Assembly (NCBI RefSeq): GCF_014764365.1
Contig: NZ_CP061718.1
Span: 3,984,501-4,048,500 of the forward strand
Length of the DNA stretch: 64,000 nt
From: Roseococcus microcysteis
GTDB lineage: Bacteria; Pseudomonadota; Alphaproteobacteria; Acetobacterales; Acetobacteraceae
Reading direction: 5' to 3'
The notes below the pieces were generated by a model, which was not told the origin of the DNA, did no database searches, and worked only from the letters and a program-made list of their open reading frames with translations. Shown piece after piece: positions 9,468 through 40,644 of this stretch. How positions within the stretch are numbered: position 1 is the stretch's first letter; each line of letters starts with the position of its first letter. The position numbers were made by a program, and so were the translations under genes.

Positions 9468-10432
9468 TCAGCCCGCCGTGATGTTGGCGTCGCGGACCAG
9501 GCGGCCCCAGCGCTCGTATTCGGACCGCACGAAGCGGGCGAAGTCGGCGGGCGGGCTGGCCACGGGCTGCGCCCCCAGCGCGGTGAAGCGCGCCTTTGCC
9601 TCCTCCGTCGCGTTCACCGCGGCCACGGCCTGCTGCATGCGCGTCGCGATCGCCTCCGGCAGGTTCCTGGGCCCCCACATGCCGTACCAGGTAGTGATCT
9701 CGTAGCCCGGCACGCCCGCCTCCGCGATGGTGGGCAGATTCGGGAAGGCCTCGATGCGTTCGGCGGTGCTGACGGCGAGGGCCTTCAGCCGCCCCTCGCG
9801 CACATGCTGGGCCGAGGAGGCCAGGCTGTCGAACATCACCTGCACATGCCCGCCCACCATGTCCGTCAGCGCGGGGCCGGAGCCGCGATAGGGGACATGG
9901 GCGATGTTCGTGCCCGTCATCAGCTTGAACATCTCGCCCGCCAGATGCGGCGCGCCGCCGATGGAGGAGGAGGCATAGGAAAGCCGCCCCGGCTGCGCGC
10001 GGGCCAGCGCGATGAGTTCCGCCACGCTGTTCACCGGAAGCTGCGGGTTCACCACCAGGATCAGCGGCACCTTCACCAGCTCCGTCACCGGGGTGAAATC
10101 CGCCACGGCGTCGAAGGGCATGTTGGGCTGGAGGTGCGGGATGATGACATGCGCGGACGCATTCACCAGGAACATCCCGCCATCGGGGGCCGCGCGCGCC
10201 ACCTCGCCTGAGCCGATCACGCCCGAGGCGCCCGCCCGGTTCTCCACCACCGCGGGCTGGCCCAGCTGCGCCTGCAAGCCCGCCGCCACCACACGCCCCG
10301 CGATGTCGGTGGGCCCCCCGGCGGATAGGGCACGATGATGCGCACCGGCCGCGTGGGCCAGGATTGCGCGCGTGCCAATGCGGGCGTGGCGAGCAGCGGC
10401 GCGGCCAGGATGGCGCGTCGTGTGGCGTGCAT
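9468..10432 (-). pseudogene. Bug/TctC-family solute receptor, frameshifted (probably a one-base sequence error)
   Basis: Periplasmic receptor of the tripartite tricarboxylate transporter type (PF03401). ATG at 10432 follows GGGAGAAACCC and begins MHATRRAILAAPLLATPALA, a clear signal peptide, then SWPTRPVRIIVPYPPGG. At the run C6/G3 (plus strand 10311-10319) the frame breaks; the rest (TDIAGRVVAAGLQAQLG to VRDANITAG) continues in the next frame down to TGA 9468. One extra base in the run restores a normal 321-residue Bug protein, with HVPYRGSGPALTDMVGG and other conserved blocks intact. No TctA/TctB permease is nearby. It sits back to back with a CoA-transferase gene and upstream of a quinone oxidoreductase. 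Confidence 0.85.
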
Positions 10433-26972: not shown

Positions 26973-27269
26973 TCACTCCGTGTTGCGCGCCCGCTCCATC
27001 AGCCGCGCGATGCCCGTGATCTTCTCCAGCCCCATGTCCAGGGGCTGGCCGGTGCGCGGGTCGGGGTAGATCTTCAGGTAGGACTGCCCCGCCACCTTCT
27101 CCCACCGCCCCGAGGGCCGGCGCATCTGCAGATCCACGCCGGTGGATTTCAGCAGCATCCGCACCAGCGCCTCCTTCGGCGCGTCGGGCTTTGGCAGGCA
27201 GGGATAGGCGCCGATCATCTTCCAGCCATTGGCCAGCGCCCAGTCCGTGAGTTCCTGCTTCGTCATCAT
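26973..27269 (-). CDS. Small protein of unknown function
   Basis: 98 residues (97 from the second ATG at 27266). Basic, no membrane segment, no recognised domain; contains NGWKMIGAYPCLPKPDAPKEALVRMLLK and YLKIYPDPRTGQPLDMGLEKI. Its start overlaps the amidase stop in the string ATGATGA, so translation is coupled to the amidase. It ends one base from the convergent ThDP enzyme gene. The coupling suggests it works with the amidase, but nothing shows how. Confidence 0.75.
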   Translation of the reverse strand: MMTKQELTDWALANGWKMIGAYPCLPKPDAPKEALVRMLLKSTGVDLQMRRPSGRWEKVAGQSYLKIYPDPRTGQPLDMGLEKITGIARLMERARNTE

Positions 27270-28726
27270 GCCATGGAGGCCGGGGGCACGCTGCCCGGGC
27301 GCGGGTCAATGGGCAGCATCCGGTCCAGCCCCGCCGCCGCCTCGAACAGCGCCGCCGCCTGCAAGGCCACATCCTCGCGCCGGTGCGGGGCCACCACCTG
27401 CAAACCCACCGGCCTTCCATACTGGTCGAAGCCGCAGGGCACGGCCACGGCGGGGCAGCCCGTCATGGTGATGGCGGCATTCAGCATGGAGCCCGCCATG
27501 TAGTTCTCCAGCTTCACGCCCGCGATGGTCTCGGGGTTGCGCAGCATCACGTCGAAGGCGGGCGTGGGCGCGCCCGGCGTGATGAACACGTCATACTTGC
27601 CGAACATCGCCACCATGCGGCGGAAGAAGGCAGCGCGCTCACGGTCCGCCCAGGCCAGGCGGCTCGGCGTCGCGTCCAGCCCGCGCTGGGTGTTCCAGAT
27701 GATGTCGGGCTTCAGCTGGTCGCGGTGGGACTGCATCTGCAATTCGCGGTCCACGACGAAGACCTGGCTGCGGAGAACCAGGAAGGCTTCGTCCAGTTCG
27801 CCCAGGTCGGGCGCGAATTCCTCGACCACGCAGCCCATCGCCTCGAAATGCTTCATCGCCTTCGTGCAGATCTCGCGCACCTCGCGGTCCACCGGCAGCT
27901 TGCCGTTGAAGTCGGTGGTGAAGGCGATGCGGCGGGGGCGGTTCTGCTCGGCCGAGGCCACGGCGGCGGCATAGGGCAGGGCGGGCGCGTCATAGGTCAG
28001 CGGGTCATGGGCGCACCAGCCCGCCATGGTGTCGAGGAACAGCGCCAGGTCCGGGATGTTCCGCGCCATCGGGCCCTGCACCGACATGGGCGAGAAGGTG
28101 TTGTTCACCGTCCCCCGCGTGATGCGCCCGGGCGAAGGCCGCAGCCCCGCCACGGAACAATAGGTGCCAGGCCGCCGCGTGCTGCCGCCATGGTCCGTGC
28201 CCTGCGCGAGCCACACCTCGCCGGTGGCGAGCGAGACGGCGCCACCCCCCGTGCTGCCCCCGCAGGTGAGCGAAGTGTTCCACGGATTGCGCGTGCGCCC
28301 GAACACCTCGTTGAAGGTGGAGCCGCCCGCGCCGAATTCCGGCGTGTTGGACTTGCCGATGACGATGCCGCCCAGCGCCTCGATGCGTTCCACCACCGGG
28401 TGCGAACGCTCCGGCACATGGTCCTTGAAGATGGGCGAGCCATAGGTGGTGCGAACGCCCGCCACATCGGTCAAATCCTTGATGGAGACGGGCAGGCCGC
28501 CCAGCCACCCCGCCTGGCCCTCGCGTTCCCGCCCCTCGCCGCGCATCAGCCGCTTCGCGTGGTCGCGCGCGCGGTCGAGGCAGAGCGTGGGCAGGGCATT
28601 CACCGCGGGCTCGACCTCCGCGATGCGCGACGCCGCCGCTTCCACGAGTTCGAGGGGCGAGACCTCGCCGCGCGCGAGCGCCGCGACGGCCTGGGTGGCG
28701 GAAAGACGGATCAGATCATGCGACAT
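27266..28726 (-). CDS. Amidase signature family hydrolase
   Basis: 486 residues from ATG 28726, full length for the family. The Ser-cisSer-Lys triad is in place: Lys in GLPVSIKD, the cis-Ser in CGGSTGGGAVSLATG, where the more usual GGSSGG reads GGSTGG, and the nucleophile in GTDHGGSTRRPG (usually GGSIRxPA). It hydrolyses an amide or ester; candidates include aliphatic or aryl amides. Divergent from a Bug receptor (102-bp gap), which may import the substrate. The unusual Thr substitutions next to both serines may affect specificity. Confidence 0.92.
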   Translation of the reverse strand: MSHDLIRLSATQAVAALARGEVSPLELVEAAASRIAEVEPAVNALPTLCLDRARDHAKRLMRGEGREREGQAGWLGGLPVSIKDLTDVAGVRTTYGSPIFKDHVPERSHPVVERIEALGGIVIGKSNTPEFGAGGSTFNEVFGRTRNPWNTSLTCGGSTGGGAVSLATGEVWLAQGTDHGGSTRRPGTYCSVAGLRPSPGRITRGTVNNTFSPMSVQGPMARNIPDLALFLDTMAGWCAHDPLTYDAPALPYAAAVASAEQNRPRRIAFTTDFNGKLPVDREVREICTKAMKHFEAMGCVVEEFAPDLGELDEAFLVLRSQVFVVDRELQMQSHRDQLKPDIIWNTQRGLDATPSRLAWADRERAAFFRRMVAMFGKYDVFITPGAPTPAFDVMLRNPETIAGVKLENYMAGSMLNAAITMTGCPAVAVPCGFDQYGRPVGLQVVAPHRREDVALQAAALFEAAAGLDRMLPIDPRPGSVPPASMA

Positions 28727-28828
28727 GGTGCGAGAGTGGCACCAGGGCCCGCACCCCGGCAACCGTGCGCTTGCGCCATTCCCCTCGCCCGCGTTAGCCA
28801 TGGCGGCACAAACACTGGGAGGAACCAA

Positions 28829-29806
28829 ATGTTCTCACGTCGCATGCTTTTCGCGTCGGCGCCGGCGCTCGCCGCACCCGCGCTGCTGCCCGGCACCGCC
28901 AGCGCGCAGAACTTCCCCACGCGCCCCATCATGATGGTGAACCCCTATCCGCCCGGCGGCGCCACGGAATTCGGCGCGCGCCTCATCGCGCAGCGGATGG
29001 AGCAGGAACTCGGCCAGAGCGTCGTGATCGACGCCCGCGCGGGTGCGGGCACGGCCATCGGCAACTCCTTCGTGGCCGGGCAGCGTCCCGATGGCTACAC
29101 GCTGTTGATGGGGACCACCTCGCTCGCCGTGCTGCCAGCCTTGCAGCCCACCTCCGTCCCGCGGGACCCGCGCACGGCCTTCGCCCCCATCGGGCCGGCC
29201 ACCATCTCGCCCTTCGTGCTGCATGTGCATCCGGACTTCCCGGCGCGCACGGTGCAGGAGGTGATTGACTACGCGAAGGCCAATCCGGGCCGGGTGAGCT
29301 GGGGCAGCTCCGGCATCGGTGCCATCAACCACATGACGCTGGAGCTCTTCCGCGCGCGCACGGGCATTGACGTGGTGCACGTGCCCTATCGCGGCGGCGC
29401 GCCCGCGCTGGTGGACATCGCGGCGAACCGCATCCAGTGCATGTTCGCGGCGGCGCAGGAAGCCTCCAGCTCGATCCAGGCAGGGCGCACGCGCGGCATC
29501 GCGGTCACGTCCACCGAGCGCATGGCCTCGCTGCCCGACCTGCCGCCCATCGCGGAGACGGTGCCGGGCTTCAACTCCGTGTTCTGGCAGGGCGTGTTCG
29601 CGCCCGCCGGCATTTCGCAGGAGATCGCCGCCCGGCTGGAGCGCGCGGTCCGCAACGCCGCCGAGAATGCCGAGGTGAAGGAGCGGCTGGCCAGCGCCGG
29701 CATCGCCAACTGGCCTGGCGATGCGGCCCTGCTGCGCGACACGCTGGCACAGGACACGGAGACCTGGGGCAACATCATCCGCACCCAGAACATCACGGTG
29801 GGCTAG
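28829..29806 (+). CDS. Bug/TctC-family periplasmic solute receptor
   Basis: 325 residues, ATG 28829 after ACTGGGAGGAACCAA. Signal peptide MFSRRMLFASAPALAAPALL with cleavage near ASA-QN. Mature part: NFPTRPIMMVNPYPPGGATEF, VIDARAGAGTAIG, HVPYRGGAPALVDIAANRI and a C-terminal WGNIIRTQNITVG. The ligand-loop Asp of most Bug proteins is replaced (GGATEFGAR has Glu), so ligand choice may differ. Divergent from the amidase; TAG at 29804-29806 lies one base from the first 55-bp hairpin repeat. Confidence 0.93.
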   Translation: MFSRRMLFASAPALAAPALLPGTASAQNFPTRPIMMVNPYPPGGATEFGARLIAQRMEQELGQSVVIDARAGAGTAIGNSFVAGQRPDGYTLLMGTTSLAVLPALQPTSVPRDPRTAFAPIGPATISPFVLHVHPDFPARTVQEVIDYAKANPGRVSWGSSGIGAINHMTLELFRARTGIDVVHVPYRGGAPALVDIAANRIQCMFAAAQEASSSIQAGRTRGIAVTSTERMASLPDLPPIAETVPGFNSVFWQGVFAPAGISQEIAARLERAVRNAAENAEVKERLASAGIANWPGDAALLRDTLAQDTETWGNIIRTQNITVG

Positions 29807-29807
29807 C

Positions 29808-29970
29808 GTCTGATCGGCTTCGGTGGATCACCGAAGCCGTGAATCAGCCGCGGCGACAGTTCGTCTGATCGGCTTCGGTGGATCACCGAAGCCGTGAATC
29901 AGCCGCGGCGACAGTTCGTCTGATCGGCTTCGGTGGATCACCGAGGCCGTGAATCAGCCGCGGGCGACAG
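29808..29970. repeat. Three tandem 55-bp hairpin repeats (REP-like)
   Basis: Units 29808-29862 and 29863-29917 are identical; the third, 29918-29970, differs by one substitution and one inserted G. Each unit carries an 11-bp perfect inverted repeat, CGGCTTCGGTG and CACCGAAGCCG around GAT, inside an outer CTGAT/ATCAG pair. There are no spacers, so this is not a CRISPR array. It lies between convergent genes and could end transcription from both sides; the third unit also encodes the last ten residues and stop of the esterase gene at 29938. The core resembles the hairpins at 56995-57144. Confidence 0.9.
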
Positions 29971-30975
29971 CCCCCAGAAGTCGCAGATGCGGCGGGCGGC
30001 GGGGGTGCCCGCCGCCAGCACCCAGCGCGCCGCACGGCCTTCTCCCTCGCCGATGGGAAAGCCGTGCGCCATCTCCTCCAGCGTCCACAACTCCACCAGA
30101 GCGGTGGCGCCGCGTGACCACTGGCGCAACCGCGCGCCAGGGGCGGGCTCGGTGTCTTGCGAGGGTTCCTCCAAAAGCCCGTGCAGCGCGCCCCATTGCG
30201 TGGCCAGCAGCGCCGCGTTGTCCGGATGTACCGTCCGGTCACGCCCGCCCTGCCAGATGGACAGGCGCGGCCAGCGCGCCGTGCCGCGGGCCGGGTTGAA
30301 GGCGCGCACGCTGGCGGCCAGGCCCGCGCGGGTGGTGAAGCGGTTGGCGTGGCGCATGCGGAGCAGCGCGCCGCCGGGCGTTACGGCTGAACCCACCGGC
30401 ATCCCCGCCACCACCGCGCCCGCCGCGAAGACCGCCGGATAGGCGGCCAGCAGCGCCGCCGCCATCGCGCCCCCGGCGGAGAGCCCCACGACGAAGACGC
30501 GCCGCTTGTCGGTGCCGAAATGCCGCATGGCCCAGCGCAGCCCCTGGCGGATGGACATGGCCTCGCCCTGGCCGCGCGCCACATCCTGCGGGCGGAACCA
30601 GTTGAAGCAGCGGTGCCGGTTGTTCTCGCGGACCTGCTCGGGCAGCAGCAGGGGCACGCCCAGCGCCTCTGACATCGCGATCCAGCCGGCATCGGCCGCG
30701 AAGCTTGCCGCATCCTGCCCGCAGCCATGCAGCACCACGATCAGTGGCGTGCCGGGGGCGGGGGCGCGGCGCGGCACATGGACGAACATGCGCAGGCCGC
30801 CCGGATTGGTGCCGAAGCCCGTGATGGCGGAGGTGCGGCCCGGCGTGGGCATGGTGGGTGGGGTCGGCGCCCAGGCGGCCCGCATCAGCCCCATGGTGGC
30901 CCCCATGGTGGCGCGGCTCATCCGGCGCAGCGCCGCCGCCGCACCGGGCGGCCGGCGGAAGCGGATCAGCCGCAT
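29938..30975 (-). CDS. PHB-depolymerase/LpqC-like esterase
   Basis: 345-residue alpha/beta hydrolase of the extracellular-type PHB depolymerase (esterase) family. Seen: oxyanion motif VVLHGCGQDAASFA near residue 80, the NRHRCFNWF block, GEAMSIRQGLRWAM, the nucleophile elbow VGLSAGGAMAA near 165 and a late His in EEMAHGFPIG. A long hydrophilic leader precedes the domain and no clear signal peptide is visible, so location is uncertain. Its last ten codons and TGA lie inside the third 55-bp repeat, so the present C-terminus (SPAADSRPR) is repeat-derived. Confidence 0.88.
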   Translation of the reverse strand: MRLIRFRRPPGAAAALRRMSRATMGATMGLMRAAWAPTPPTMPTPGRTSAITGFGTNPGGLRMFVHVPRRAPAPGTPLIVVLHGCGQDAASFAADAGWIAMSEALGVPLLLPEQVRENNRHRCFNWFRPQDVARGQGEAMSIRQGLRWAMRHFGTDKRRVFVVGLSAGGAMAAALLAAYPAVFAAGAVVAGMPVGSAVTPGGALLRMRHANRFTTRAGLAASVRAFNPARGTARWPRLSIWQGGRDRTVHPDNAALLATQWGALHGLLEEPSQDTEPAPGARLRQWSRGATALVELWTLEEMAHGFPIGEGEGRAARWVLAAGTPAARRICDFWGLSPAADSRPR

Positions 30976-31056
30976 GGGAGGCGCAGGGGGTGCATGGGGG
31001 GCATCGGAGCAGCAACGTGCGCCGGGGGCCTGGGGTTGCCCCGCTAGGCGGGCGGG

Positions 31057-32057
31057 TCAGCCCTGCAAACCGTCCCACCAGGGGCAGGCGCCGGGCATGC
31101 GGGTGTGGTTGCCGTGCAGCACCTGCACCGGCGCGCGTTCGCCGCGGGAAGCGGCCTCCATCCGCATGCGGCGGCCCGCCGCCACGGCCTCGGGGCCCGC
31201 CCAGATGCGGTCATGGCCCCAGAGGCTGGGGCCGCTGTCCATGCGCTCCGCCTGCCAGGTCTCAGGCTCGATGTGCCGGCCGCCCCAGCCATATTCCACC
31301 AGGAAGCCGCCGGGGGTGCGGGCGTAGAAGCTGGTCATCCAGTCATTGGTGTGGCGGCCGAGGGTGGTGGCGACCCGCCCTTCCTCGGCCTGGGCCAGGT
31401 CATAGCCCTGGCCGACATCGTCCAGGCTGAGGCATTCCATCATCAGGTGGTGCATGCCCGCGCGCCCGGTCTCGATCAGCGCCAGCGAATGATGCCGGCC
31501 GTTCACATGCAGGAAATAGCCGCGGAAGGGCTGCTCGACCCAGTCGGAGAGGCCGAAGCCCAGCACGTCGCGGTAGAAGGGCAGCACCTCGTCCACGCGC
31601 GGCACCGTCAGCACCGCATGCCCCATGCCGAGCGGCCCGGTGCGGAAGCCCGAGATGGCCCGGCCGGGGATGAAGGCGGCGGTGGCCACCTCCGGCCCGT
31701 GGAAGAATTCCAGGCGATTGCCCAGCGGGTCGGCGGCCAGGATGAGCGCCGCCACCCGCCGCTGGTCGGCCAGGGCCTGGCTGCCACGCGCGACCGCCAC
31801 GCCCGCGCCCTCCAGCCGCGCGGCCAGGGTGTCGAGGGCCGCCGCATCCGCCACCTCCCAGCCCATGGCGCCCAGCCCGTCATGGGTGTCGCCGCTGACG
31901 AGGATGCGCTGCCGCCGGTCATCCATGCGGAAGGCCAGTTCGGATTGCGTCTTCTCCGCCAGCATCAGCCCCAGCATGCGCGGGCCGAAGCCCGCCCAGT
32001 CGTCGAGATTGCTGGCGCGGAGTTCGAGATAGCCGAGAGCCTGGATCGGGGGGCCAT
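31057..32057 (-). CDS. Type I extradiol dioxygenase (VOC family), frameshift at second codon region
   Basis: Two-domain vicinal-oxygen-chelate protein of the 2,3-dihydroxybiphenyl/catechol 2,3-dioxygenase type, about 333 residues. The C-terminal domain keeps the Fe(II) ligands: His in MGHAVLTVPRV, His in GMHHLMMEC and Glu in GFLVEYGWGG. An ideal ribosome site (AGGAG, 7 bases upstream) points to ATG 32057, but the run of six G on the plus strand (32048-32053) puts that ATG one base out of frame with the body, which starts ...PPIQALGYLELRASNLDD. One extra base restores the gene. No other ATG/GTG lies early in the body frame. Divergent from a Bug-hydrolase-cyclase operon, so ring cleavage in an aromatic pathway is likely. 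Confidence 0.85.
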
Positions 32058-32133
32058 GGCGCGCTCCTGTTCTTTGCGCGCATACTGAACCGAACGGCGC
32101 CACAAGCCGAGAGGGTGGGGGAGAGAGAACGCC

Positions 32134-33081
32134 ATGTTGTCCAAAAGCGTCCGGGCCGCGCTGGCCCTGCTGCTGCTGCCGGCGACGGCCATGGCCCAAG
32201 GTTGGGCGCCGGAGCGCCCCGTCACCATCGTGAACCCCTATGCCGCCGGCAGCACCACCGACACGCTGGCGCGCACCCTGGCCCAGGGCATGACGGCGCG
32301 GTTGGCGCAGCCCGTGGTGGTGCAGAACCGCGATGGCGCCGCGGGCGGTATTGGAACGGCCTTCGTGACGCGCGCGGCGCCGGACGGGCACACGCTGCTG
32401 TTCGCGCCCGCTGTCGTGCTCTCCGTCCTGCCGGCGCGCGGCGATCCGGGCTATGGGCCGGAGGCGCTGGTGCCCATCTGCCAGACCTTCGAGAACGCGA
32501 TGGCGATTGCCGTGCGGCCCGACAGCCCCTTCACCACCCTGGCCGATTTGGTGGCGGCGGCGCGGGCGCGGCCCGGCGCGGTTACCTTCGGGCACCAGGG
32601 CATCGCGTCCATCCCGCATCTGGCCGCGCTGGAACTGGCCGAGGCGGCGCGGCTGCAATTCCAGGACGTGCCCTATCGGGGCGAGCCCGCGGTCCTCACC
32701 GATTTGCGCGCCGGAAGGGTGGATTTCGCGGTGACCGTCATGGGCTCTTTGGCCGGGCAGAACATGCGGGTGCTGGGCGTCTTCGCCCCCGCCCGCCACC
32801 CGCTGATGCCCGAGGTGCCCACCGTCGCCGAGCAGGGCTTCCCCGTGGCGCCGACCAGCTTCGGCGGCCTCTTCGCCCCCGCCGGCACGCCGCAAGCCGC
32901 CCGCGTGGCGCTGGAGGCCGCCTGCCTGGCCGCCGCCCGCGACGAGGCCTATCGCGCCGTCGCCGCCCGCGTCTTCCAGCCCGAGACCCCCGAAGCCCCG
33001 GCCGACGCCCTGGCCGCGCGGCTGGCCCGCGACATCGCCGACAAGCGCCGCCTGCTGACCGCCATCGGCGCCGCCCGCTGA
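32134..33081 (+). CDS. Bug/TctC-family periplasmic solute receptor
   Basis: 315 residues, ATG 32134 after GGGGGAGAGAGAACGCC. Signal peptide LSKSVRAALALLLLPATAMA. Mature part opens GWAPERPVTIVNPYAAGSTTDTLAR and has VVVQNRDGAAGG, DVPYRGEPAVLTDLRAG and a shortened C-terminus without the usual W..VV.....I ending. Its NPYAAGS.TD loop is nearly the same as in the receptor at 35203, marking the two as close paralogues around the hydrolase and cyclase genes. 19 bp to the next gene. Confidence 0.92.
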   Translation: MLSKSVRAALALLLLPATAMAQGWAPERPVTIVNPYAAGSTTDTLARTLAQGMTARLAQPVVVQNRDGAAGGIGTAFVTRAAPDGHTLLFAPAVVLSVLPARGDPGYGPEALVPICQTFENAMAIAVRPDSPFTTLADLVAAARARPGAVTFGHQGIASIPHLAALELAEAARLQFQDVPYRGEPAVLTDLRAGRVDFAVTVMGSLAGQNMRVLGVFAPARHPLMPEVPTVAEQGFPVAPTSFGGLFAPAGTPQAARVALEAACLAAARDEAYRAVAARVFQPETPEAPADALAARLARDIADKRRLLTAIGAAR

Positions 33082-33100
33082 CCTTGTTGAAGGAGACCGC

Positions 33101-34387
33101 ATGACCCCCGACGCCACCCATGACCCCGCCCTGACCAGTTGGGTCGCCTCGGCCCAGGCGCCGGGCTGCGACTTCCCCATCCAGAACCTGCCGCATGGCG
33201 TGTTCAGCACCGCGGGCGGCGCGCCGCGCGGGGGCGTGGCCATCGGCGACATGATCCTGGATGTGGGGGCGGCGGTCCGCCTTGGCCTGCTGCGCGGCGA
33301 GGCGGCGGAGGCCGCTTCCGCCCCCAGCCTGAACGGGCTCATGGCGCTGGGGCGCGCGGCGGAGTTGCGGCGCGACATCTCGGCCCTGCTGGCCGCCGGC
33401 TCCACCGCCGAGGCCCATGCCGGCGCGCTGCTCGTGCCCATGGCGCAGGCGCGGATGCACCTGCCGACGACCATCGCCAATTTCTCCGACTTCATGGCCA
33501 GCATTGACCATTGCGCGCGGCTGGGCGTGCGGCGGGACCCGAAGAACCCCTTGCCCCAGGCCTTCCGCCATTTGCCCGTGGCCTACCATTCCCGCGCCAG
33601 CTCCGTGCGCGTCAGCGGGGAGGCGGTGGTCCGCCCGCATGGCCAATGGCCGCGCGAGGATGGCGCCGTGCGCTTCTCGCCCACGGAGGCGATGGATTTC
33701 GAACTCGAACTCGCCATCTGGATCGCGGGCGAGAACGCGCTCGGCACCCCCGTCACCATGGACCAGGCGCCCGGCCGCATCTTCGGCGTGGGGCTGCTGA
33801 ACGACTGGTCGGCGCGCGACATCCAGCGCTGGGAGATGCCGCCGCTCGGTCCCTTCCTGGCCAAGAGCCTCTCCACCACCGTCTCGCCCTGGGTGGTGAC
33901 GATGGAGGCGCTGGCGCCCTTCGCGCGGCCCGCGCCCAGCATCGAACCGCCGCCGCTGCCGCATCTGGACAGCGCGTGGAACCGCGCGGTGGGTGCGCTC
34001 GGCATCCGCATGCAGGCGTTGATCCTTACACCGCGCATGCGCGCGGAAGGCGCGGCGCCGGCCGTGCTGACCGACACCGACTTCGCCCATCTCTACTGGA
34101 CCTGCGCGCAGATGGTGGCCCACCACGGCAGCAATGGCTGCAATTTGCTGCCCGGCGACCTGCTCGGCAGTGGCACCGCCTCCGGCCCGGAGGACAGCGC
34201 CCGCGCCTGCCTCGCCGAAATCCTGCTGACCGGCCCCGTCACGCTGCCCAATGGCGAGACGCGGAACTATCTGCTGGATGGCGACGAGATCATCTTCCGC
34301 GCCCGCGCCGAGGCCCCCGGCGCCACCCCCATCGGATTCGGCGAATGCCGGGGCGAGATCGCGCCCGCCACCGCCTGGCCCCACTGA
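33101..34387 (+). CDS. Fumarylacetoacetase (FAH) family hydrolase
   Basis: 428 residues, the length of full fumarylacetoacetase with its N-terminal SH3-like domain. ATG 33101 after GAAGGAGACCGC. Seen: TTIANFSDFMASIDHC (family YSDF block), metal-binding carboxylates in DFELELAIWI and LLNDWSARDIQRWE, and the lysine-bearing FLAKSLSTTVSPWVVTM, all in the expected order. It should cleave a carbon-carbon bond of a beta-diketone acid such as fumarylacetoacetate. No homogentisate dioxygenase is adjacent, but an extradiol dioxygenase is divergent from the operon, so the substrate may be a different ring-cleavage product. Confidence 0.9.
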   Translation: MTPDATHDPALTSWVASAQAPGCDFPIQNLPHGVFSTAGGAPRGGVAIGDMILDVGAAVRLGLLRGEAAEAASAPSLNGLMALGRAAELRRDISALLAAGSTAEAHAGALLVPMAQARMHLPTTIANFSDFMASIDHCARLGVRRDPKNPLPQAFRHLPVAYHSRASSVRVSGEAVVRPHGQWPREDGAVRFSPTEAMDFELELAIWIAGENALGTPVTMDQAPGRIFGVGLLNDWSARDIQRWEMPPLGPFLAKSLSTTVSPWVVTMEALAPFARPAPSIEPPPLPHLDSAWNRAVGALGIRMQALILTPRMRAEGAAPAVLTDTDFAHLYWTCAQMVAHHGSNGCNLLPGDLLGSGTASGPEDSARACLAEILLTGPVTLPNGETRNYLLDGDEIIFRARAEAPGATPIGFGECRGEIAPATAWPH

Positions 34388-34408
34388 ACCACCGCAAGAG
34401 GAAACGCC

Positions 34409-35197
34409 GTGCCCCGCCGCATCATTGACATCTCCGTGGCCCTCAAGGCCGGGATCGCCAGCGACCCGCCGCGCATGCTGCCGGAGATCAACTATATCGA
34501 CCACCACATGTCCGCCCCCGCCATGGCGGAGGAGTTCGGCATCCGCCTGGACCAGCTGCCCGAGGGCGAATACGCGGCCGTCGAGCAGGTCCGCATCTCC
34601 ACCCACAACGGCACGCATCTGGACGCGCCCTACCACTTCTTCAGCCGCATGAACGAACGCCTGGTGCCGGGCGGCGAGCCCTCCTGGCGCATTGACGAGG
34701 TGCCGCTCGACTGGTGCTTCCAGCCCGGCGTGAAGCTCGACTTCCGGCACATGGAGGATGGCTATGTCTGCACGCCGGCCGATGTGCAGGCGGAACTCAA
34801 GCGCATCGGCCACACGCTGAAGCCGCTGGAAATCGTGGTGGTGAACACCCGCGCGGGCAGCCGCTATGGCCATGACGACTTCATCCACAGCGGCTGCGGC
34901 ATGGGCAAGGAAGCCACGCTCTGGCTGCTGGAGCAGGGGGTGCGCGTGACCGGCACGGATGGCTGGAGCTGGGACGCGCCCTTCTCCCACACCCGCCGCA
35001 AGGTCCAGGAGACGGGGGATGCGGGCCTGATCTGGGAAGGCCACCGCGCCGGCCGCGAGATTGGCTATTGCCACATGGAGAAGCTGTCGAACCTCGAAGC
35101 TCTGCCGGCCGATGGCTTCATGATCTCCTGCTTCCCGGTGAAGATCCACCGCGCCTCGGCCGGCTGGATCCGCGCCGTCGCCATCATCGAGGAGTGA
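34409..35197 (+). CDS. Cyclase/kynurenine-formamidase-like metal hydrolase (PF04199)
   Basis: 262 residues from GTG 34409 (AGAGGAAACGCC upstream). Seen: the metal motif STHNGTHLDAPYHF near residues 66-79, a later HSGCGMGKEATLWLLEQGVRVTGTDG and DAPFSHTRR, typical of the family that includes kynurenine formamidase and isatin hydrolase. It is 21 bp after the FAH gene and 5 bp before the second receptor gene. It probably hydrolyses a cyclic or formyl-amide compound of the same pathway. Confidence 0.9.
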   Translation: MPRRIIDISVALKAGIASDPPRMLPEINYIDHHMSAPAMAEEFGIRLDQLPEGEYAAVEQVRISTHNGTHLDAPYHFFSRMNERLVPGGEPSWRIDEVPLDWCFQPGVKLDFRHMEDGYVCTPADVQAELKRIGHTLKPLEIVVVNTRAGSRYGHDDFIHSGCGMGKEATLWLLEQGVRVTGTDGWSWDAPFSHTRRKVQETGDAGLIWEGHRAGREIGYCHMEKLSNLEALPADGFMISCFPVKIHRASAGWIRAVAIIEE

Positions 35198-35202
35198 GCG
35201 CC

Positions 35203-36141
35203 ATGCGCCGCCTGTTCCTGGCCCTCGCCCTGCTGGCGCCCATGCCCGCCTTCGCCTGGCCCGAGCGCCCCATCACCATCATCAACCCCTATGCCGCCGG
35301 CAGCAGCACCGACGCCGCCGCCCGCGCGCTGGCGGACTCCTTCACGCGCGAGTTGGGGCAGAACGTCATCGTCACCTCGCAATCCGGCGCCTCGGGCGTG
35401 GTGGGCATGCGGGCGCTGACCCAGGCCGCGCCCGATGGCCACACGTTGGCCTATGCGCCGCTGGTGCCCCTGGTGTTCCAGCCGCATCTGGTGCGGAACA
35501 CGGGTCTTGGCCCTGAGGCCGTGGCGCCGGTCTGCAACGTGACCGAGAACATCCTCGGCATCATGGTGAAGGCCGACAGCCCCATCCGGAACCTGACCGA
35601 CCTGGTGGCGGCGGCGCGACAGCGTGTGCTGAACTATGGCTCGCCCGGGCCCAATTCGGCGCCCTTCCTGGGTGTGCACCGCATCCAGGCGGCGGCGGGT
35701 GGCCAATACACGCACATCCCCTTCCGGGGCGACAATGCGTCGCTGCTGGAGGTGATCGCGGGGCGGCTCGACTTCGCGGCGATCGTGGTGGCCTCGGGCG
35801 TGCCGATGGCGCGGGCGGGGCAGGTGCGGCTGATCGCGGTGTTCTCGGAAGGCCGTCATCCCGCCTTCCCCGACGTGCCCACGGCGCGCGAGCAGGGGGT
35901 GGATGCGCTGCAACCCTCCTACGCCGCGCTCTTCGCCCCGCGCGGCACGCCGGCCGCGGTGCTGGAGCGGCTGGAGGGCGCCTGCCGCCGCGCGATGGAC
36001 ACGGATGGCTTCCGCCGCTTCACCGAGAACTGGGGCGCGGTGCCCAGCTTCCGCCCGCGCGCGGAACTGGCGCGGATGCTGGCCAGCGAATACGAGGCTG
36101 CCGGCCGCACCTTCCGTGAGTTGGGCGTGCAGCCGGAGTAG
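35203..36141 (+). CDS. Bug/TctC-family periplasmic solute receptor
   Basis: 312 residues, ATG 35203 five bases after the cyclase stop. Signal peptide MRRLFLALALLAPMPAFA. Mature part: WPERPITIINPYAAGSSTDAAAR, VIVTSQSGASGVVG, HIPFRGDNASLLEVIAGRLD. It is a close relative of the receptor at 32134 and closes the same operon. Two receptors in one operon may serve two related substrates or be a duplication under divergence. A GC hairpin follows. Confidence 0.92.
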   Translation: MRRLFLALALLAPMPAFAWPERPITIINPYAAGSSTDAAARALADSFTRELGQNVIVTSQSGASGVVGMRALTQAAPDGHTLAYAPLVPLVFQPHLVRNTGLGPEAVAPVCNVTENILGIMVKADSPIRNLTDLVAAARQRVLNYGSPGPNSAPFLGVHRIQAAAGGQYTHIPFRGDNASLLEVIAGRLDFAAIVVASGVPMARAGQVRLIAVFSEGRHPAFPDVPTAREQGVDALQPSYAALFAPRGTPAAVLERLEGACRRAMDTDGFRRFTENWGAVPSFRPRAELARMLASEYEAAGRTFRELGVQPE

Positions 36142-36162
36142 TCTTTTGCGCGGCTGATTCAC

Positions 36163-36185
36163 CGCCCCGGCCTTATGCCGGGGCG
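36163..36185. terminator. Possible bidirectional terminator hairpin
   Basis: Perfect 9-bp stem (CGCCCCGGC / GCCGGGGCG) with loop CTTAT between two convergent genes ending at 36141 and 36211. No U tract follows on either strand, so termination is likely but not certain. The flanking GCGGCTGATTCAC matches a segment of the 55-bp repeat at 29808, possibly a decayed copy. Confidence 0.5.
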
Positions 36186-36210
36186 CCTGCACCGGCCGCG
36201 CGCTCCTCGC

Positions 36211-36996
36211 CTACTGCGCGCGCCGCCGCAGCGCCATGTCCACCAGCAACAGCAGCAGCGTGAACACGATCAGCAGCACCGCCACCGCCGCCATGGCGGG
36301 GTCGAGGTTCTCGTTGATCCCGTCCCAGATGCGGCGGGGCAGGGTGAACACGTCGCGGCTCGCGATGAACAGCACCATCACCAGCTCATCCCAAGAATGG
36401 ATGAAGGCGAAGATGGCGCCCGAGACGATGCCCGGCATGATGCGCGGCAGGATCACCCAACGCAGCGTCTGCATGAGCGAGGCCCCCATGCCCCGCGCCG
36501 CCTGCTCCAGCCGCGGGTCGAAGGCGGCCAGGGCCGTCGAGACGGTGATGACCACATAGGGAATGCCCGTGACGCCATGGGCGATGACCACGCCCAGGAA
36601 GCGGTCCAGCAGGTCGAGCGGCCCGAAATAGCGATACAGCCCGATCGCGTAGACGATGGAGGGGATGATCAGCGGCAGCAACATCAGCAGCCGCACGAGG
36701 TCCGTCGCGCGCCGCGAGATGCGCCAGCAGCCGATGGCGCACAGCGTCCCCGCCACCACCGACAGCACCGTGGAAGCGAGCGCGATGGTGAAGGACTGCC
36801 AGATGGAGCCCAGCCATTCCTCCGAGGTCAGCACCGTACGGAAGTGCTGCAGGCTCAGCCCCTCATGCGGCAGCGAGAGGAAACGCTGGTCCGTCAGCGC
36901 CACCGGCAGCACGATCAGGATGGGCAGCACGAGGTAGAGCGCCGTGATCCAGGCCAGCCCCCGCCCGAAGGGCCCGGCGCCATGGGTTCCATGCAT
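36211..36996 (-). CDS. ABC transporter permease (PotC-like)
   Basis: 261-residue inner-membrane permease with six helices. Seen: ALYLVLPILIVLPVALTD as first helix and the EAA loop LEQAARGMGASLMQTLRWVILPRIMPGI near residues 165-192. The final gene of the minus-strand operon that begins at 41766; ATG 36996 lies three bases after the PotB-like stop. Works with the PotB-like permease and PotA-like ATPase to import a small cationic or organic solute. Confidence 0.92.
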   Translation of the reverse strand: MHGTHGAGPFGRGLAWITALYLVLPILIVLPVALTDQRFLSLPHEGLSLQHFRTVLTSEEWLGSIWQSFTIALASTVLSVVAGTLCAIGCWRISRRATDLVRLLMLLPLIIPSIVYAIGLYRYFGPLDLLDRFLGVVIAHGVTGIPYVVITVSTALAAFDPRLEQAARGMGASLMQTLRWVILPRIMPGIVSGAIFAFIHSWDELVMVLFIASRDVFTLPRRIWDGINENLDPAMAAVAVLLIVFTLLLLLVDMALRRRAQ

Positions 36997-36999
36997 CGC

Positions 37000-37848
37000 T
37001 CAGCCCCCCCCGCTGCCGAACATGCGCCGCAGGTCCACCACCCGGGAAAAGACCAGCAGCGTGACCATGATGGCCACCACCAGCATGGTCGCCATCATGG
37101 TGCCCAGCCCCCAGCGGATCAGGTCCAGGATCTGCAGCGCGATCCACTCCGCCACCATCAGCGTGCGGCCGCCGCCCAGGATGGCGGGCGTGATGTAGAA
37201 GCCCAGCGAGAAGATGAAGACCAGCACGCCGGCCGCGATCACGCCGGGCATGGAGAGCGGCAGGAAGACCTGGCGGAACACCTGCCCGCGCGAGGCGCCA
37301 AGCCCCCGCGCGGCCGCCAGCAGCCGCATGTCGATCTCGCGCATGGAGGCCAGCATGGGCAGCACCGCGAAGGGCACCATGTAGTGCACCATGCCGACCA
37401 GGATGCCGAATTCGTTCCACACCAGCGGCAGCGGTTCGCTGATCACGCCCGCCTGCATCAGCGTGTTGTTCACCAGCCCTTGGCGGCGCAGCAGCGTGAC
37501 CCAGGCGAAGGCCCGCACCAGCACCGAGATCCACAACGGCACCAGCACCGCCAGGATCCACCAGTTGCGCGCCCGCGGCGAGGCGAGGGTGATGGCATAG
37601 GCGATGGCATAGCCCAGCAGCAGCGCGAAGGCGGTGGTCAGCAGGCAGATGCGCAGCGTGGTGAAGATGACGCGCTGGATGCCCTCCGAGGTCAGCAGGC
37701 GTTCGTAATTGCCGAGGCCCGGCTCGGGCTCGGTGAAGGAGATGGTCAGCACCTGCGCGATGGGCGCCACGTAGAAGAACAGCACCAGCGCCACGGCGGG
37801 CAGCAGCAGCAGCCACCAGCCCAGGCTCGCGCGGCCGGAGGCCGTCAT
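37000..37848 (-). CDS. ABC transporter permease (PotB-like)
   Basis: 282-residue inner-membrane permease with six helices. Seen: LLLLPAVALVLFFYVAPIAQVLTISF near the start and the EAA loop LLAAARGLGASRGQVFRQVFLPLSMPGV. Its ATG overlaps the ATPase gene's stop by four bases. The C-terminus ends in a run of Gly encoded by eight consecutive G, a spot where a miscount would alter only the last residues. Confidence 0.92.
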   Translation of the reverse strand: MTASGRASLGWWLLLLPAVALVLFFYVAPIAQVLTISFTEPEPGLGNYERLLTSEGIQRVIFTTLRICLLTTAFALLLGYAIAYAITLASPRARNWWILAVLVPLWISVLVRAFAWVTLLRRQGLVNNTLMQAGVISEPLPLVWNEFGILVGMVHYMVPFAVLPMLASMREIDMRLLAAARGLGASRGQVFRQVFLPLSMPGVIAAGVLVFIFSLGFYITPAILGGGRTLMVAEWIALQILDLIRWGLGTMMATMLVVAIMVTLLVFSRVVDLRRMFGSGGG

Positions 37849-38939
37849 GGCGCGTCCTCCTCGACCGGCACGGCGGCATCGGCCGCCCAGCCGAGCCGCA
37901 CCGGCAGCCCTTCGGCAGGTGCCACGGGCGATTGCCAGGCGGGCAGCACGGCGCGAATTTCGCCCAGATGCGGCGTCTCCACCACCAGCGAGAAGCCGGC
38001 GCCCAGATAGGCGAAGGCGCGCACCGTGCCTTCGACCACGTTTTCCGCCGTCTCACCGGCGTTCAGCACCGTGATCTTCTCGGGGCGCAGCGAGAGCAGG
38101 GCGCGCCCGCCATCGCGCGGCATGTGGACCGGGCCCGCGAAGCGCACATGGATGCCCTGGCCCGGCGTCTCCAGCAGCATCCCCGCCGCGTCCGGCCCGC
38201 GCGCGACGCCGTGCAGGAAGTTCGACTTGCCGAGGAAATCCGCCACGAAGCGGGTGCGTGGGCGTTCATAGAGTTCGCCGGGGCCGCCGAACTGCACCAG
38301 CTTGCCATGGTTCAGGATGGCGATGCGGTCCGACAGCGACAGCGCCTCCTCCTGGTCATGCGTGACGTTGACGAAGGTGCGGCCGATGCGCCGGTGCAGC
38401 GCCTTCAGCTCCTCCTGGAGTTCGGCGCGCAGCTTCTTGTCGAGCGCAGAAAGGGGTTCGTCCAGCAGAAGCAAATTCGGGTCGAAGACCAGCGCGCGGG
38501 CCAGGGCCACGCGCTGCTGCTGCCCGCCGGAAAGCTGCTTGGGCAGGCGCTCCGCGAAGGCCGAAAGCTGCACGAGGTCGAGCGCCGCGCGCACCTTGGC
38601 GTCCCGGTCGGCGCGCGACTGGCCGCGCACGCGCAGCGGAAAGGCCACGTTGTCGGCCACGCTCATATGCGGGAACAGCGCATAGCCCTGGAAGACCATG
38701 CCGAAATCGCGTTTCTCGGGCGGGAGCGGCGTGATGTCGCGCCCATCCAGCAGCACATGCCCGTCGGTCGGCTCCACGAAGCCCGCCACCGCCATCAGGA
38801 TGGTGGTCTTGCCGGAGCCGCTCGGGCCCAGCAGCGTCAGGAACTGGCCCTGCTCCACCTCCAGCGAGACATCCTCCACCGCCGTGAAGTCGCCATAGCG
38901 CTTGGTCAGCCGGCGCAGCGAAAGGGCGTGGCCCTTCAC
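37845..38939 (-). CDS. ABC transporter ATP-binding protein (PotA-like)
   Basis: 364-residue ATPase, GTG start at 38939 overlapping the aldolase gene's stop. Seen: Walker A LGPSGSGKTTIL near residue 38, QLSGGQQQRVALARAL, LLLLDEPLSALDKKLR, switch His in VTHDQEEALSLSD and a C-terminal TOBE/OB region (ISLRPEKITVLNAGE-like SLRPEKITVL). It energises the Pot-type transporter. Coupled translation (4-bp overlaps on both sides) indicates stoichiometric expression. Confidence 0.94.
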   Translation of the reverse strand: MKGHALSLRRLTKRYGDFTAVEDVSLEVEQGQFLTLLGPSGSGKTTILMAVAGFVEPTDGHVLLDGRDITPLPPEKRDFGMVFQGYALFPHMSVADNVAFPLRVRGQSRADRDAKVRAALDLVQLSAFAERLPKQLSGGQQQRVALARALVFDPNLLLLDEPLSALDKKLRAELQEELKALHRRIGRTFVNVTHDQEEALSLSDRIAILNHGKLVQFGGPGELYERPRTRFVADFLGKSNFLHGVARGPDAAGMLLETPGQGIHVRFAGPVHMPRDGGRALLSLRPEKITVLNAGETAENVVEGTVRAFAYLGAGFSLVVETPHLGEIRAVLPAWQSPVAPAEGLPVRLGWAADAAVPVEEDAP

Positions 38940-39706
38940 GACTTGTAGTCCGGCTGCTGGCGGTCGAGCTTGCGGCGCAGCGCCTGCCAGGGCAGCCAGC
39001 CCTTGGTGGGGCCGCTGCCGAACTGGTCGCGCGTGCGCTCCACCACCTCGGGCGGCGGCATGGTCAGCGCCTTGCCGCCCGATTGCGCGGCGAGCTGGAT
39101 TCGGCAGGACTGCTCCAGGTAGTACATGTAGTAGAAGGCCTCGGCCACGGTGCGCCCCACCGTCAGCAGCCCGTGGTTGCGCAGGATCATGCAGTTGTGG
39201 CTGCCCAGGTCGCGCACCAGGCGCTGGCGTTCCGACAGGTTGTCGTCCGCCGCGATGCCCTCGTATTCATGGATGGCGACGCGCCCCGCGAATTCGATGC
39301 TGATCTGGTTCAGCGGCAGCAGCCCCTGTTCCTGCGCCGCCACCGCCATGCCCGCGATGGTGTGGGTGTGCATGACGCAAGCCGCATCCTCACGCCCGGT
39401 GTGGATGGCCGAATGGATGACGAAGCCCGCCGGGTTCACCGGCCAGGAGGTCTCCTGCAAGGGCTCGCCCTCCGCGTCCACGGCGACGAGGGAGGAGGCC
39501 GTGACCTCCTCGAACAGCAGCCCATAGGGGTTCACCAGGAACCGATGTCCCGGCCCCGGCAGCCGCACGGACAGGTGCGTGAACACCAGGTCCGTCATGC
39601 CGAAATGCGCGATGAGGCGGTAGGCCGCGGCCAGATCCTCGCGCAGCTCCTGTTCGGTCGGCGTGCGGTTGGGGTCGGGGCGGACGGGCGGCGGGGGAAG
39701 GGACAT
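38936..39706 (-). CDS. Class II aldolase/adducin family protein
   Basis: 256 residues from ATG 39706 (TTG three bases upstream possible). Zinc-dependent class II aldolase fold: HLSVRLPGPGHRFLVNPYG, the His pair in CVMHTHTIAGMAV and a third His in LRNHGLLTVG. Related proteins are fuculose-phosphate-type aldolases or decarboxylases; the catalytic acid residue cannot be placed with confidence. It sits between a D-2-hydroxyacid dehydrogenase gene and the Pot-type ATPase gene, overlapping both, so enzyme and transporter are made together. Substrate unknown. Confidence 0.9.
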   Translation of the reverse strand: MSLPPPPVRPDPNRTPTEQELREDLAAAYRLIAHFGMTDLVFTHLSVRLPGPGHRFLVNPYGLLFEEVTASSLVAVDAEGEPLQETSWPVNPAGFVIHSAIHTGREDAACVMHTHTIAGMAVAAQEQGLLPLNQISIEFAGRVAIHEYEGIAADDNLSERQRLVRDLGSHNCMILRNHGLLTVGRTVAEAFYYMYYLEQSCRIQLAAQSGGKALTMPPPEVVERTRDQFGSGPTKGWLPWQALRRKLDRQQPDYKS

Positions 39707-40644
39707 CAATAGCCTCGCGCGGGGTCGTAGAGATGGGGAAGCGTCTCGCCACGCTCCAGCGCGGCGATGGCGCGGGCCACGTAGCGCGCGCGCTCGGCGC
39801 GGCTGGGCAGGCTGGCCACATGGGGGGTGACGATGATGGAAGGATGCGCCCAGGCCGGGCTGTCGGATGGCAGGGGCTCGGGCGTGAACACGTCCAGCAC
39901 CGCGCCCGAGAGCTGCCCGGAATCGAGGGCGGCGATGATGTCGGGCAGCACCTGCTGCGCCCCGCGCCCCACCTGCACCAGCCCCGCGCCGCGCGGCAGC
40001 TTCGCCAGCAGCGGCGCCGCGAGAAGGCCCTGGGTTTCGGCGGTGGCGGGCAGCAGGCAGACCAGCACGTCGCAGCCGGAGAGGAAGGCGTCACGCTCCT
40101 CCGCACCCGCGAAGCACTCGACGCCGGGGATGGATTTGCGGCTGCGCGACCAGCCGCGCACCGGAATGCCCAGCGCACGCAGCATCTCGGCCGAACGCTG
40201 GCCCATGGCGCCGAGGCCCATGATGCCCACGGTGCGGTCCGCCGCGGCGAAGGGCGGGTCCACCGCCGCCCATTCCCGCGCGGCCTGGGCCAGCGCCATG
40301 CGCCGCGCCTCCTTGGCGAGCGACAGCACGGCCCACACCACGAATTCGCCCATGCGCTGCGTGGCCTCGTCGGGCACGCAGCGCACGATGGGCACGCCCG
40401 CCGGCAGGCTCGGATCCGCCACGATGTGATCCACGCCCGCGCCCGAGCCGAAGATGGCGCGCAGCCTGGGCATGGCGGCGAGCCGCCCCGGCTCGGGGTC
40501 CCAGACCAACGCGTAGTCCACCATCTCGGGCGTCACGTCCGGGTCATTCCAGTCCCGGACCTCCAGGCCCGGCACCAGGTCACCGAAGCCGCGACGCCAT
40601 TCCAGGACGGCCTCGGGGCCGCCCGACTTCACCACCAGGATCAC
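39706..40644 (-). CDS. D-2-hydroxyacid dehydrogenase (GhrA-like)
   Basis: 312 residues, GTG start at 40644. NAD(P)H-dependent reductase of 2-oxo acids such as glyoxylate or hydroxypyruvate. Seen: Rossmann loop GIMGLGAMGQRSAEML near residue 140, GRGAQQVLPDIIAALDSGQLSGAVLDVF with the catalytic Glu segment PEPLP, and the catalytic His in TPHVASLP. The Arg of the family's RG motif is present in VGRGAQ. It overlaps the aldolase start by one base and follows the receptor gene by 15 bp. Confidence 0.92.
   Translation of the reverse strand: MILVVKSGGPEAVLEWRRGFGDLVPGLEVRDWNDPDVTPEMVDYALVWDPEPGRLAAMPRLRAIFGSGAGVDHIVADPSLPAGVPIVRCVPDEATQRMGEFVVWAVLSLAKEARRMALAQAAREWAAVDPPFAAADRTVGIMGLGAMGQRSAEMLRALGIPVRGWSRSRKSIPGVECFAGAEERDAFLSGCDVLVCLLPATAETQGLLAAPLLAKLPRGAGLVQVGRGAQQVLPDIIAALDSGQLSGAVLDVFTPEPLPSDSPAWAHPSIIVTPHVASLPSRAERARYVARAIAALERGETLPHLYDPARGY

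Follow-up and report, generated by a model that had tools for sequence, protein, structure and literature searches.

A putative two-module catabolic locus in Roseococcus and its fumarylacetoacetase-like hydrolase linked to a PF04199 hydrolase

We analysed five adjacent genes in a stretch of 64,000 nucleotides, here called the window, of the genome of Roseococcus microcysteis (4.2 Mb in one contig; nearest named relatives, Roseococcus). The genes encode an extradiol dioxygenase, two periplasmic Bug receptors (A and B), a fumarylacetoacetase-like C-C hydrolase (FAH-2, of the FAH superfamily) and a PF04199 hydrolase, or 'cyclase' (CYC). Our favoured explanation, to which we assign a probability of about 0.55 from the sequences, is that they form a hybrid catabolic locus for some aromatic or other cyclic organic acid. 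Two modules appear to have been joined in Roseococcus: the dioxygenase with receptor A, and FAH-2 and CYC with receptor B. So read, the locus is a variant of known meta-cleavage (ring-cleavage) catabolism. The main interest lies in the family of CYC-linked FAHs rather than in the set of five genes.

The evidence for two modules comes from 80 FAH loci, in 34 of which the FAH is at least 64% identical to FAH-2. CYC lies directly after FAH in 33 of these 34 loci, the contig of the last ending at FAH, and 15 of the 34 have two CYC genes in tandem (L004-L013, L022, L024 and others). A Bug gene follows CYC in 26 of the 33 loci, and its product is always nearer to receptor B than to receptor A; among the seven loci without such a gene, there is no sequence beyond CYC in one and less than 2 kb of it in two others. 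FAH-CYC-Bug is an old Acetobacteraceae module. Just 2 of the 34 loci (and 2 of the 80), both from Roseococcus, have the dioxygenase at a distance of 6 kb or less from FAH; at least 5 kb of sequence is present on the left, where it could have shown, in 28 of the 34. Dioxygenase and receptor A stand next to FAH-CYC-Bug only in three Roseococcus genomes. A preliminary description of this DNA had called the receptors close paralogues, but they are just 46-47% identical, and each has a nearer relative among Bugs from elsewhere, in a different context. The Bugs adjoining dioxygenase orthologues at three separate loci (L154, L159 and L168) are 55-60% identical to receptor A and 37-44% identical to receptor B; they are the closest kin of receptor A outside Roseococcus. 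Receptor A can thus be assigned to the dioxygenase module and receptor B to FAH-CYC, the two having been joined in Roseococcus, a history that would explain why two receptors flank the enzymes. The neighbourhood comparison that the preliminary description had proposed thus bears out the conservation of FAH-CYC-Bug. It does not bear out the five genes as one conserved system: the dioxygenase and receptor A, which stand beside FAH-CYC-Bug in Roseococcus alone, belong to a second module. We do not regard the locus as a chance arrangement, since FAH-CYC is found repeatedly in Acetobacteraceae and two other Roseococcus genomes encode the locus proteins at 94-99% identity.

Related contexts are found elsewhere. 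CYC homologues were located in 19 plasmid regions, 16 of them annotated and 3 without annotation. In 10 of the annotated regions, the homologue adjoins a FAH, long or short, or is separated from it by one gene; in 3 the neighbour at this distance is a 3-keto-5-aminohexanoate (beta-keto-acid) cleavage protein, and in the other 3 it is neither. CYC-FAH linkage is also present in Burkholderiales, Hyphomicrobiales and Rhodococcus. FAH and beta-keto-acid cleavage enzymes share a substrate class, the beta-dicarbonyl acids, and the presence of CYC beside one or the other suggests that CYC may make a beta-dicarbonyl compound by ring opening. All five annotated plasmid regions examined around homologues of the dioxygenase (49-53% identical) have a short FAH next to the homologue or one gene away, with a gene for a FAD-dependent aromatic hydroxylase near. 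One of these five FAH genes is labelled 5-oxopent-3-ene-1,2,5-tricarboxylate decarboxylase, which we take to be a member of the FAH superfamily. The dioxygenase orthologue comes after a short FAH in three Acetobacteraceae loci and precedes a 3-hydroxybenzoate-6-monooxygenase-like gene in three others. On plasmids of Azospirillum B510 and Diaphorobacter HDW4B, genes for a VOC protein, a Rieske protein, a FAD oxidoreductase, CYC and FAH form one operon.

FAH-2 resembles established fumarylacetoacetases in fold and catalytic site but not in its substrate pocket. It aligns over its full length with mouse and Burkholderia-type FAH structures and is the sole long FAH of its genome. Against the fumarylacetoacetase profile TIGR01266 it scores 416.4 bits, above the equivalog cut-off of 375.3; five other CYC-linked FAHs score 430-527 bits, L211 scores 431, and three HmgA-linked or HmgA-adjacent FAHs score 531-571. 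The residues that we take to be catalytic or metal-binding (mouse D126, H133, E199, E201, D233, K253 and E364) are kept in FAH-2 and in all 48 CYC-linked FAHs, except for E201 in 1. Mouse Tyr244, presumably a substrate-contact residue, is replaced by Met in FAH-2. So is Tyr128, which has been described as a binding-pocket residue (PMC6721957). We grouped 125 distinct FAH sequences by neighbour into 48 CYC-linked (42 assigned automatically, 5 from plasmids, and L081, in which the contig ends within CYC), 32 HmgA-linked and 45 others. Tyr occupies position 244 in 0 of 48, 28 of 32 and 27 of 45, respectively, and Tyr or Phe occupies position 128 in 9 of 48, 32 of 32 and 31 of 45. The column of R142 holds D in 33 of 42 CYC-linked FAHs, a count that we did not use as a neighbouring Arg makes the alignment ambiguous. 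On the FAH tree, FAH-2 falls in a clade of 38 rows (36 CYC-linked and 2 others), all with Met at both positions and with a support of 100; a second CYC-linked clade, of Burkholderiales and Aminobacter, has Tyr128 with Met244. This pattern is suggestive of an association between CYC linkage and a non-Tyr residue at position 244. FAH-2 is probably over-annotated as tyrosine-pathway fahA. As its members pass the TIGR01266 cut-off, this profile over-calls if they are not fumarylacetoacetases. Indeed, RefSeq-type annotation labels the CYC-linked FAH of R. haemaphysalidis 'fahA, tyrosine catabolic process', a label that the pocket and neighbours of that FAH argue against.

Other neighbours of long FAHs were recorded, in part by eye. 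Many FAH-2 loci have a succinate-semialdehyde-dehydrogenase-like gene and a small MaoC-like gene (by eye) divergent beside FAH. A different long FAH at L035, L036 and L041 (also L177 and L178) sits in an operon with a Rieske oxygenase, its small subunit and a PdxA-type dehydrogenase (by eye), which is another non-homogentisate setting for long FAHs. Burkholderiales long FAHs (L048, L055, L062, L069-L071, L074 and L075) come after a MarR-like regulator (by eye) and a PRK08132-type FAD oxidoreductase, and some of these loci also have a 179-residue VOC protein.

CYC scores 122 bits against PF04199, and its HxGTHxDxPxH motif is invariant in 30 of 30 aligned sequences, placing it within that family. 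A Foldseek search with a low-confidence structure model (mean pLDDT, 61.9) gave 21 matches at an E value of 0.001 or less, all of them isatin hydrolases or other cyclase-family entries and the best being isatin hydrolases. CYC, earlier likened to a kynurenine formamidase, is not one by NCBIfam, as it reaches 26 bits against the KynB profile TIGR03035, whose cut-off is 223; the kynurenine pathway was rejected on this score. PF04199 members that act on formylkynurenine and isatin have been described, with mention of trans-dienelactone hydrolase (PMC5341072). Ring opening of a trihydroxypyridine has been proposed for a nicotine-induced member, the 'polyketide cyclase' of pAO1 (PMC6214936). Given these published roles, the opening of a ring, or of an amide or lactone, is a reasonable role for CYC. 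At L135, L141 and L148, CYC orthologues lie directly downstream of an intradiol (catechol/chlorocatechol 1,2-dioxygenase-like) dioxygenase.

The dioxygenase, with domains PF00903 and PF22632, is a member of the type I (VOC) extradiol superfamily. It aligns with PDB 1HAN over 281 residues (236 bits), and its 2-His-1-Glu iron site and active-site His and Tyr align with those of 1HAN under the site numbering that we assumed for the iron ligands and active-site His. Its score against the BphC model TIGR03213 is 280.8 bits, under the equivalog cut-off of 366.45; with this score and no bph neighbours, the classical biphenyl pathway was rejected. The best match to the lower meta-pathway aldolase TIGR03217 reached 90 of 286 bits, in a search in which an Escherichia coli control was likewise under the cut-off. 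A run of C at the dioxygenase start (~32049-32058) has 6 C here and 7 C in both Roseococcus relatives, such that the ATG, in frame with 7 C, is displaced from the reading frame by one base in this assembly. The 6-C run could reflect either an error of sequencing or a true difference, and another start codon is possible because the frame is open upstream of the ATG, where there is an in-frame GTG.

All five genes lie where the preliminary description placed them and belong to the families it expected, as judged from open reading frame coordinates and Pfam and NCBIfam profiles (Table 1). The plus-strand genes are tightly packed, with gaps of 19 bp and 21 bp and then a 4-bp overlap, by their coordinates; the GTG start of receptor B overlaps the CYC stop, and an alternative start is the ATG at 35203. 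A simple consensus scan of the divergent intergenic region found no sigma-70-like promoter. Seven genes in the window, at 9468, 18930, 28844, 32134, 35194, 57163 and 62332, are Bug/TctC-like, as judged by their similarity to those of receptor A and receptor B. The called genes at 27266-40644 include no Rieske gene and no gene for a hydroxylase, the kind of enzyme that would make the catechol. Three short FAHs are encoded elsewhere in the genome; no ring-cleavage cluster was seen by eye around these or around two regions with hydroxylase-like genes, where no domain search was run.

Table 1. Features of the locus (window positions)
Feature	Position	Strand	Basis
BphC-type two-domain extradiol dioxygenase, VOC superfamily	31057..32052, start codon uncertain	(-)	profiles, structure alignment
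Divergent intergenic region, dioxygenase / receptor A	32053..32133	no strand	consensus promoter scan
Bug/TctC periplasmic receptor A	32134..33081	(+)	PF03401
Full-length fumarylacetoacetase-like C-C hydrolase FAH-2	33101..34387	(+)	PF09298 + PF01557, TIGR01266
PF04199 metal-dependent hydrolase, 'cyclase' (CYC)	34409..35197	(+)	PF04199, HxGTHxDxPxH motif
Bug/TctC periplasmic receptor B	35194..36141	(+)	PF03401

The two modules also tend to occur in the same genomes. In 120 genomes of the family, we counted the dioxygenase as present at 54% identity or more over about 300 residues and CYC at 65% or more, leaving out rows that were fragments (G022, G024 and G099 for the dioxygenase; G044 and G089 for CYC) or too distant (G082 and G091 for the dioxygenase; G037 for CYC, at 53%). 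The dioxygenase was present in 33 genomes, CYC in 43, a CYC-type FAH in 15 and HmgA, over its cut-off, in 46. Fourteen of the 15 genomes with a CYC-type FAH had the dioxygenase, compared with 33 of 120 overall, and 14 of the 15 had CYC. Counted by genus, the dioxygenase occurred in 10 of 11 genera with a CYC-type FAH and in 25 of 91 overall.

A scheme can be proposed in which these activities form one pathway. The Bug receptors, which imply uptake of organic acids, would capture the acid or acids outside the cell. A catechol-type ring would be opened by extradiol cleavage in the module of dioxygenase and receptor A. CYC would act by hydrolysis on a lactone- or amide-like cyclic intermediate, giving an open beta-dicarbonyl acid, whose C-C bond between the two carbonyls would then be hydrolysed by FAH-2. 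We infer the order of these steps, the participation of both modules in one Roseococcus pathway, the supply of the FAH-2 substrate by CYC and a natural substrate other than fumarylacetoacetate. The preliminary suggestion of an aromatic or heteroaromatic acid is plausible for such a ring-acid catabolic locus. Its statement that no standard cluster is matched also stands for the homogentisate and kynurenine pathways, as no HmgA or maleylacetoacetate isomerase exceeded its cut-off and CYC is far under that for arylformamidase. It stands for gentisate as well, a pathway that was set aside on the long type of FAH-2, with no full search for a gentisate dioxygenase made. Titles and abstracts revealed no paper on this set of genes, in a search whose coverage did not extend to most subscription journals.

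Several observations weigh against the hybrid-locus explanation. The modules are linked in three genomes only, which are close relatives, and the linkage is perhaps fortuitous. The control, HmgA, likewise showed an association with the dioxygenase and with CYC (odds about 5), and hence part of the co-occurrence of dioxygenase and FAH is due to lifestyle and shared ancestry. Only one informative independent pair on the tree bears on CYC linkage and loss of Tyr244, which is why we regard this association as suggestive and not proven. Neither of the two FAD-hydroxylase-like matches in the genome (37-39%) is near the locus. The classical product of BphC is a vinylogous 1,5-diketone, which is not a usual FAH substrate. 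Finally, neither the window dioxygenase and the VOC proteins of the Azospirillum and Diaphorobacter operons nor FAH-2 and their FAHs match at an E value of 1e-5.

The strongest rival, which we nevertheless consider unlikely, is that FAH-2 is the FahA of a rearranged tyrosine/homogentisate route, in which HPPD yields homogentisate, a divergent HmgA-like dioxygenase encoded elsewhere opens the ring and FAH-2 finishes, the other genes being bystanders. This could be so because the genome has HPPD (405 bits, over the cut-off) and a distant HmgA-like protein (83.5 bits, keeping the His of the WHG..AP and HGP motifs) without canonical HmgA or isomerase, and FAH-2, its only long FAH, exceeds the TIGR01266 cut-off (416 versus 375). 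However, the 83.5 bits compare with an HmgA cut-off of 510.75, and no maleylacetoacetate isomerase exceeds its own (best, 67.5 of 171 bits), leaving the route without its usual supply of HmgA and isomerase. FAH-2 is, moreover, linked to CYC and to no HmgA, and its two substrate-pocket Tyr residues are Met. The 120-genome sample contains eight genomes with a Met/Met FAH-2 (at least 66% identical). Besides G085, four of these eight lack HmgA (G000, G019, G020 and G112), and all four carry an HmgA-like signal, as the tyrosine route would predict. Yet G085 has FAH-2 with neither HmgA nor an HmgA-like match, three genomes (G023, G073 and G125) have canonical HmgA with its own FAH in addition to FAH-2, and G060 and G105 carry the HmgA-like signal without any FAH match. 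The gene for the divergent HmgA-like protein (PF20510, 61 bits; no NCBIfam match at an E value of 1e-30) lies within L129:7166-11021 (G000:C1 about 1107165-1111020). It is followed by genes for a metallo-beta-lactamase-fold protein and a PRK08132-type FAD oxidoreductase, and there is a small divergent regulator-like gene (MarR-like by eye).

It is also improbable, in our judgement, that the modules are unrelated neighbours, with the dioxygenase and receptor A serving for one compound and FAH-CYC and receptor B for another, brought together by chance in a Roseococcus ancestor. The modules are separate at all other loci seen, lie on opposite strands as regards their enzymes and have one receptor each. 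Nevertheless, the layout is kept in all three Roseococcus genomes with FAH-2, receptor A is predicted to be co-transcribed with FAH-2 and not with the dioxygenase, the dioxygenase tends to accompany CYC-type FAH across genera even where the two are not linked, and elsewhere the homologues of this dioxygenase have another FAH as their partner. We give very little credence to a flavonoid-type (fde/ifc-like) pathway of A-ring meta-cleavage. The Azospirillum B510 and Diaphorobacter HDW4B operons, with VOC dioxygenase, CYC and FAH beside a Rieske protein and a FAD oxidoreductase, resemble the fde genes, by function only and with the Fde set compared by description. For Herbaspirillum, published accounts describe FdeE and FdeD as the FAD monooxygenase and Rieske carrier and FdeC as the A-ring dioxygenase acting on naringenin (PMC8552027, PMC10755750). 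The present locus has no Rieske or hydroxylase gene and hence not the membership of an fde-type operon, and its dioxygenase and FAH-2 do not match the VOC proteins and FAHs of those two operons at the threshold given above.

Beyond the Roseococcus locus, we tentatively propose, as a possibility with the odds somewhat against it, that the CYC-linked FAHs are a distinct family misassigned to tyrosine degradation. CYC and FAH-2 would be the ring-opening and C-C-cleaving pair of an undescribed pathway; the enzyme that cuts the beta-dicarbonyl product of CYC would differ between lineages, being FAH-2 in some and a beta-keto-acid cleavage enzyme in others, and in Roseococcus the pair would have been joined to a dioxygenase module. 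If this is true, the widespread CYC-FAH pair (Acetobacteraceae, Burkholderiales, Hyphomicrobiales and Rhodococcus) marks an uncharacterised catabolic step, pathway predictions would be corrected and a concrete enzyme pair would be at hand for assay.

In comparison with known systems, each enzyme of the locus has a familiar counterpart from which it departs. The dioxygenase shares with BphC (2,3-dihydroxybiphenyl 1,2-dioxygenase; TIGR03213, 1HAN) the two-domain type I extradiol architecture and the aligned iron ligands and active-site His, but it falls under the BphC cut-off (281 versus 366 bits), has no bphABD genes or BphD-type hydrolase adjoining, and has relatives elsewhere that pair with a short FAH and a FAD hydroxylase. 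FAH-2 has the full-length two-domain fold of FahA of the homogentisate pathway, a score of 416 bits and the metal and catalytic residues, but differs in its linkage to CYC instead of HmgA, in having Met for Tyr128 and Tyr244, and in its clade, which is separate from the HmgA-linked FAHs of the same family. CYC shares the HxGTHxDxPxH metal motif with the PF04199 hydrolases (isatin hydrolase, KynB, trans-dienelactone hydrolase and the pAO1 'polyketide cyclase') and matches isatin hydrolases best in fold, at only ~20% identity, and it is linked to FAH, not to kynurenine or isatin genes. The alphaproteobacterial VOC-short FAH-MhpA-like hydroxylase cassettes of Martelella, Pannonibacter, Rhizobium ACO-34A and Roseinatronobacter likewise pair a dioxygenase (49-53% identical) with an FAH-superfamily gene. 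Their FAH is short, whereas FAH-2 is long; there is no CYC in the stretches covered, and TRAP transporter genes occur in three of five stretches in place of the Bug genes here. The Azospirillum B510 and Diaphorobacter HDW4B operons have the same three functional classes and a CYC that is 63% identical, with a VOC protein and a FAH of other subfamilies and a hydroxylase that is absent here. As only CYC is alike and the VOC protein and FAH are not, the combination of VOC, CYC and FAH seems, from these sequences, to have been assembled more than once.

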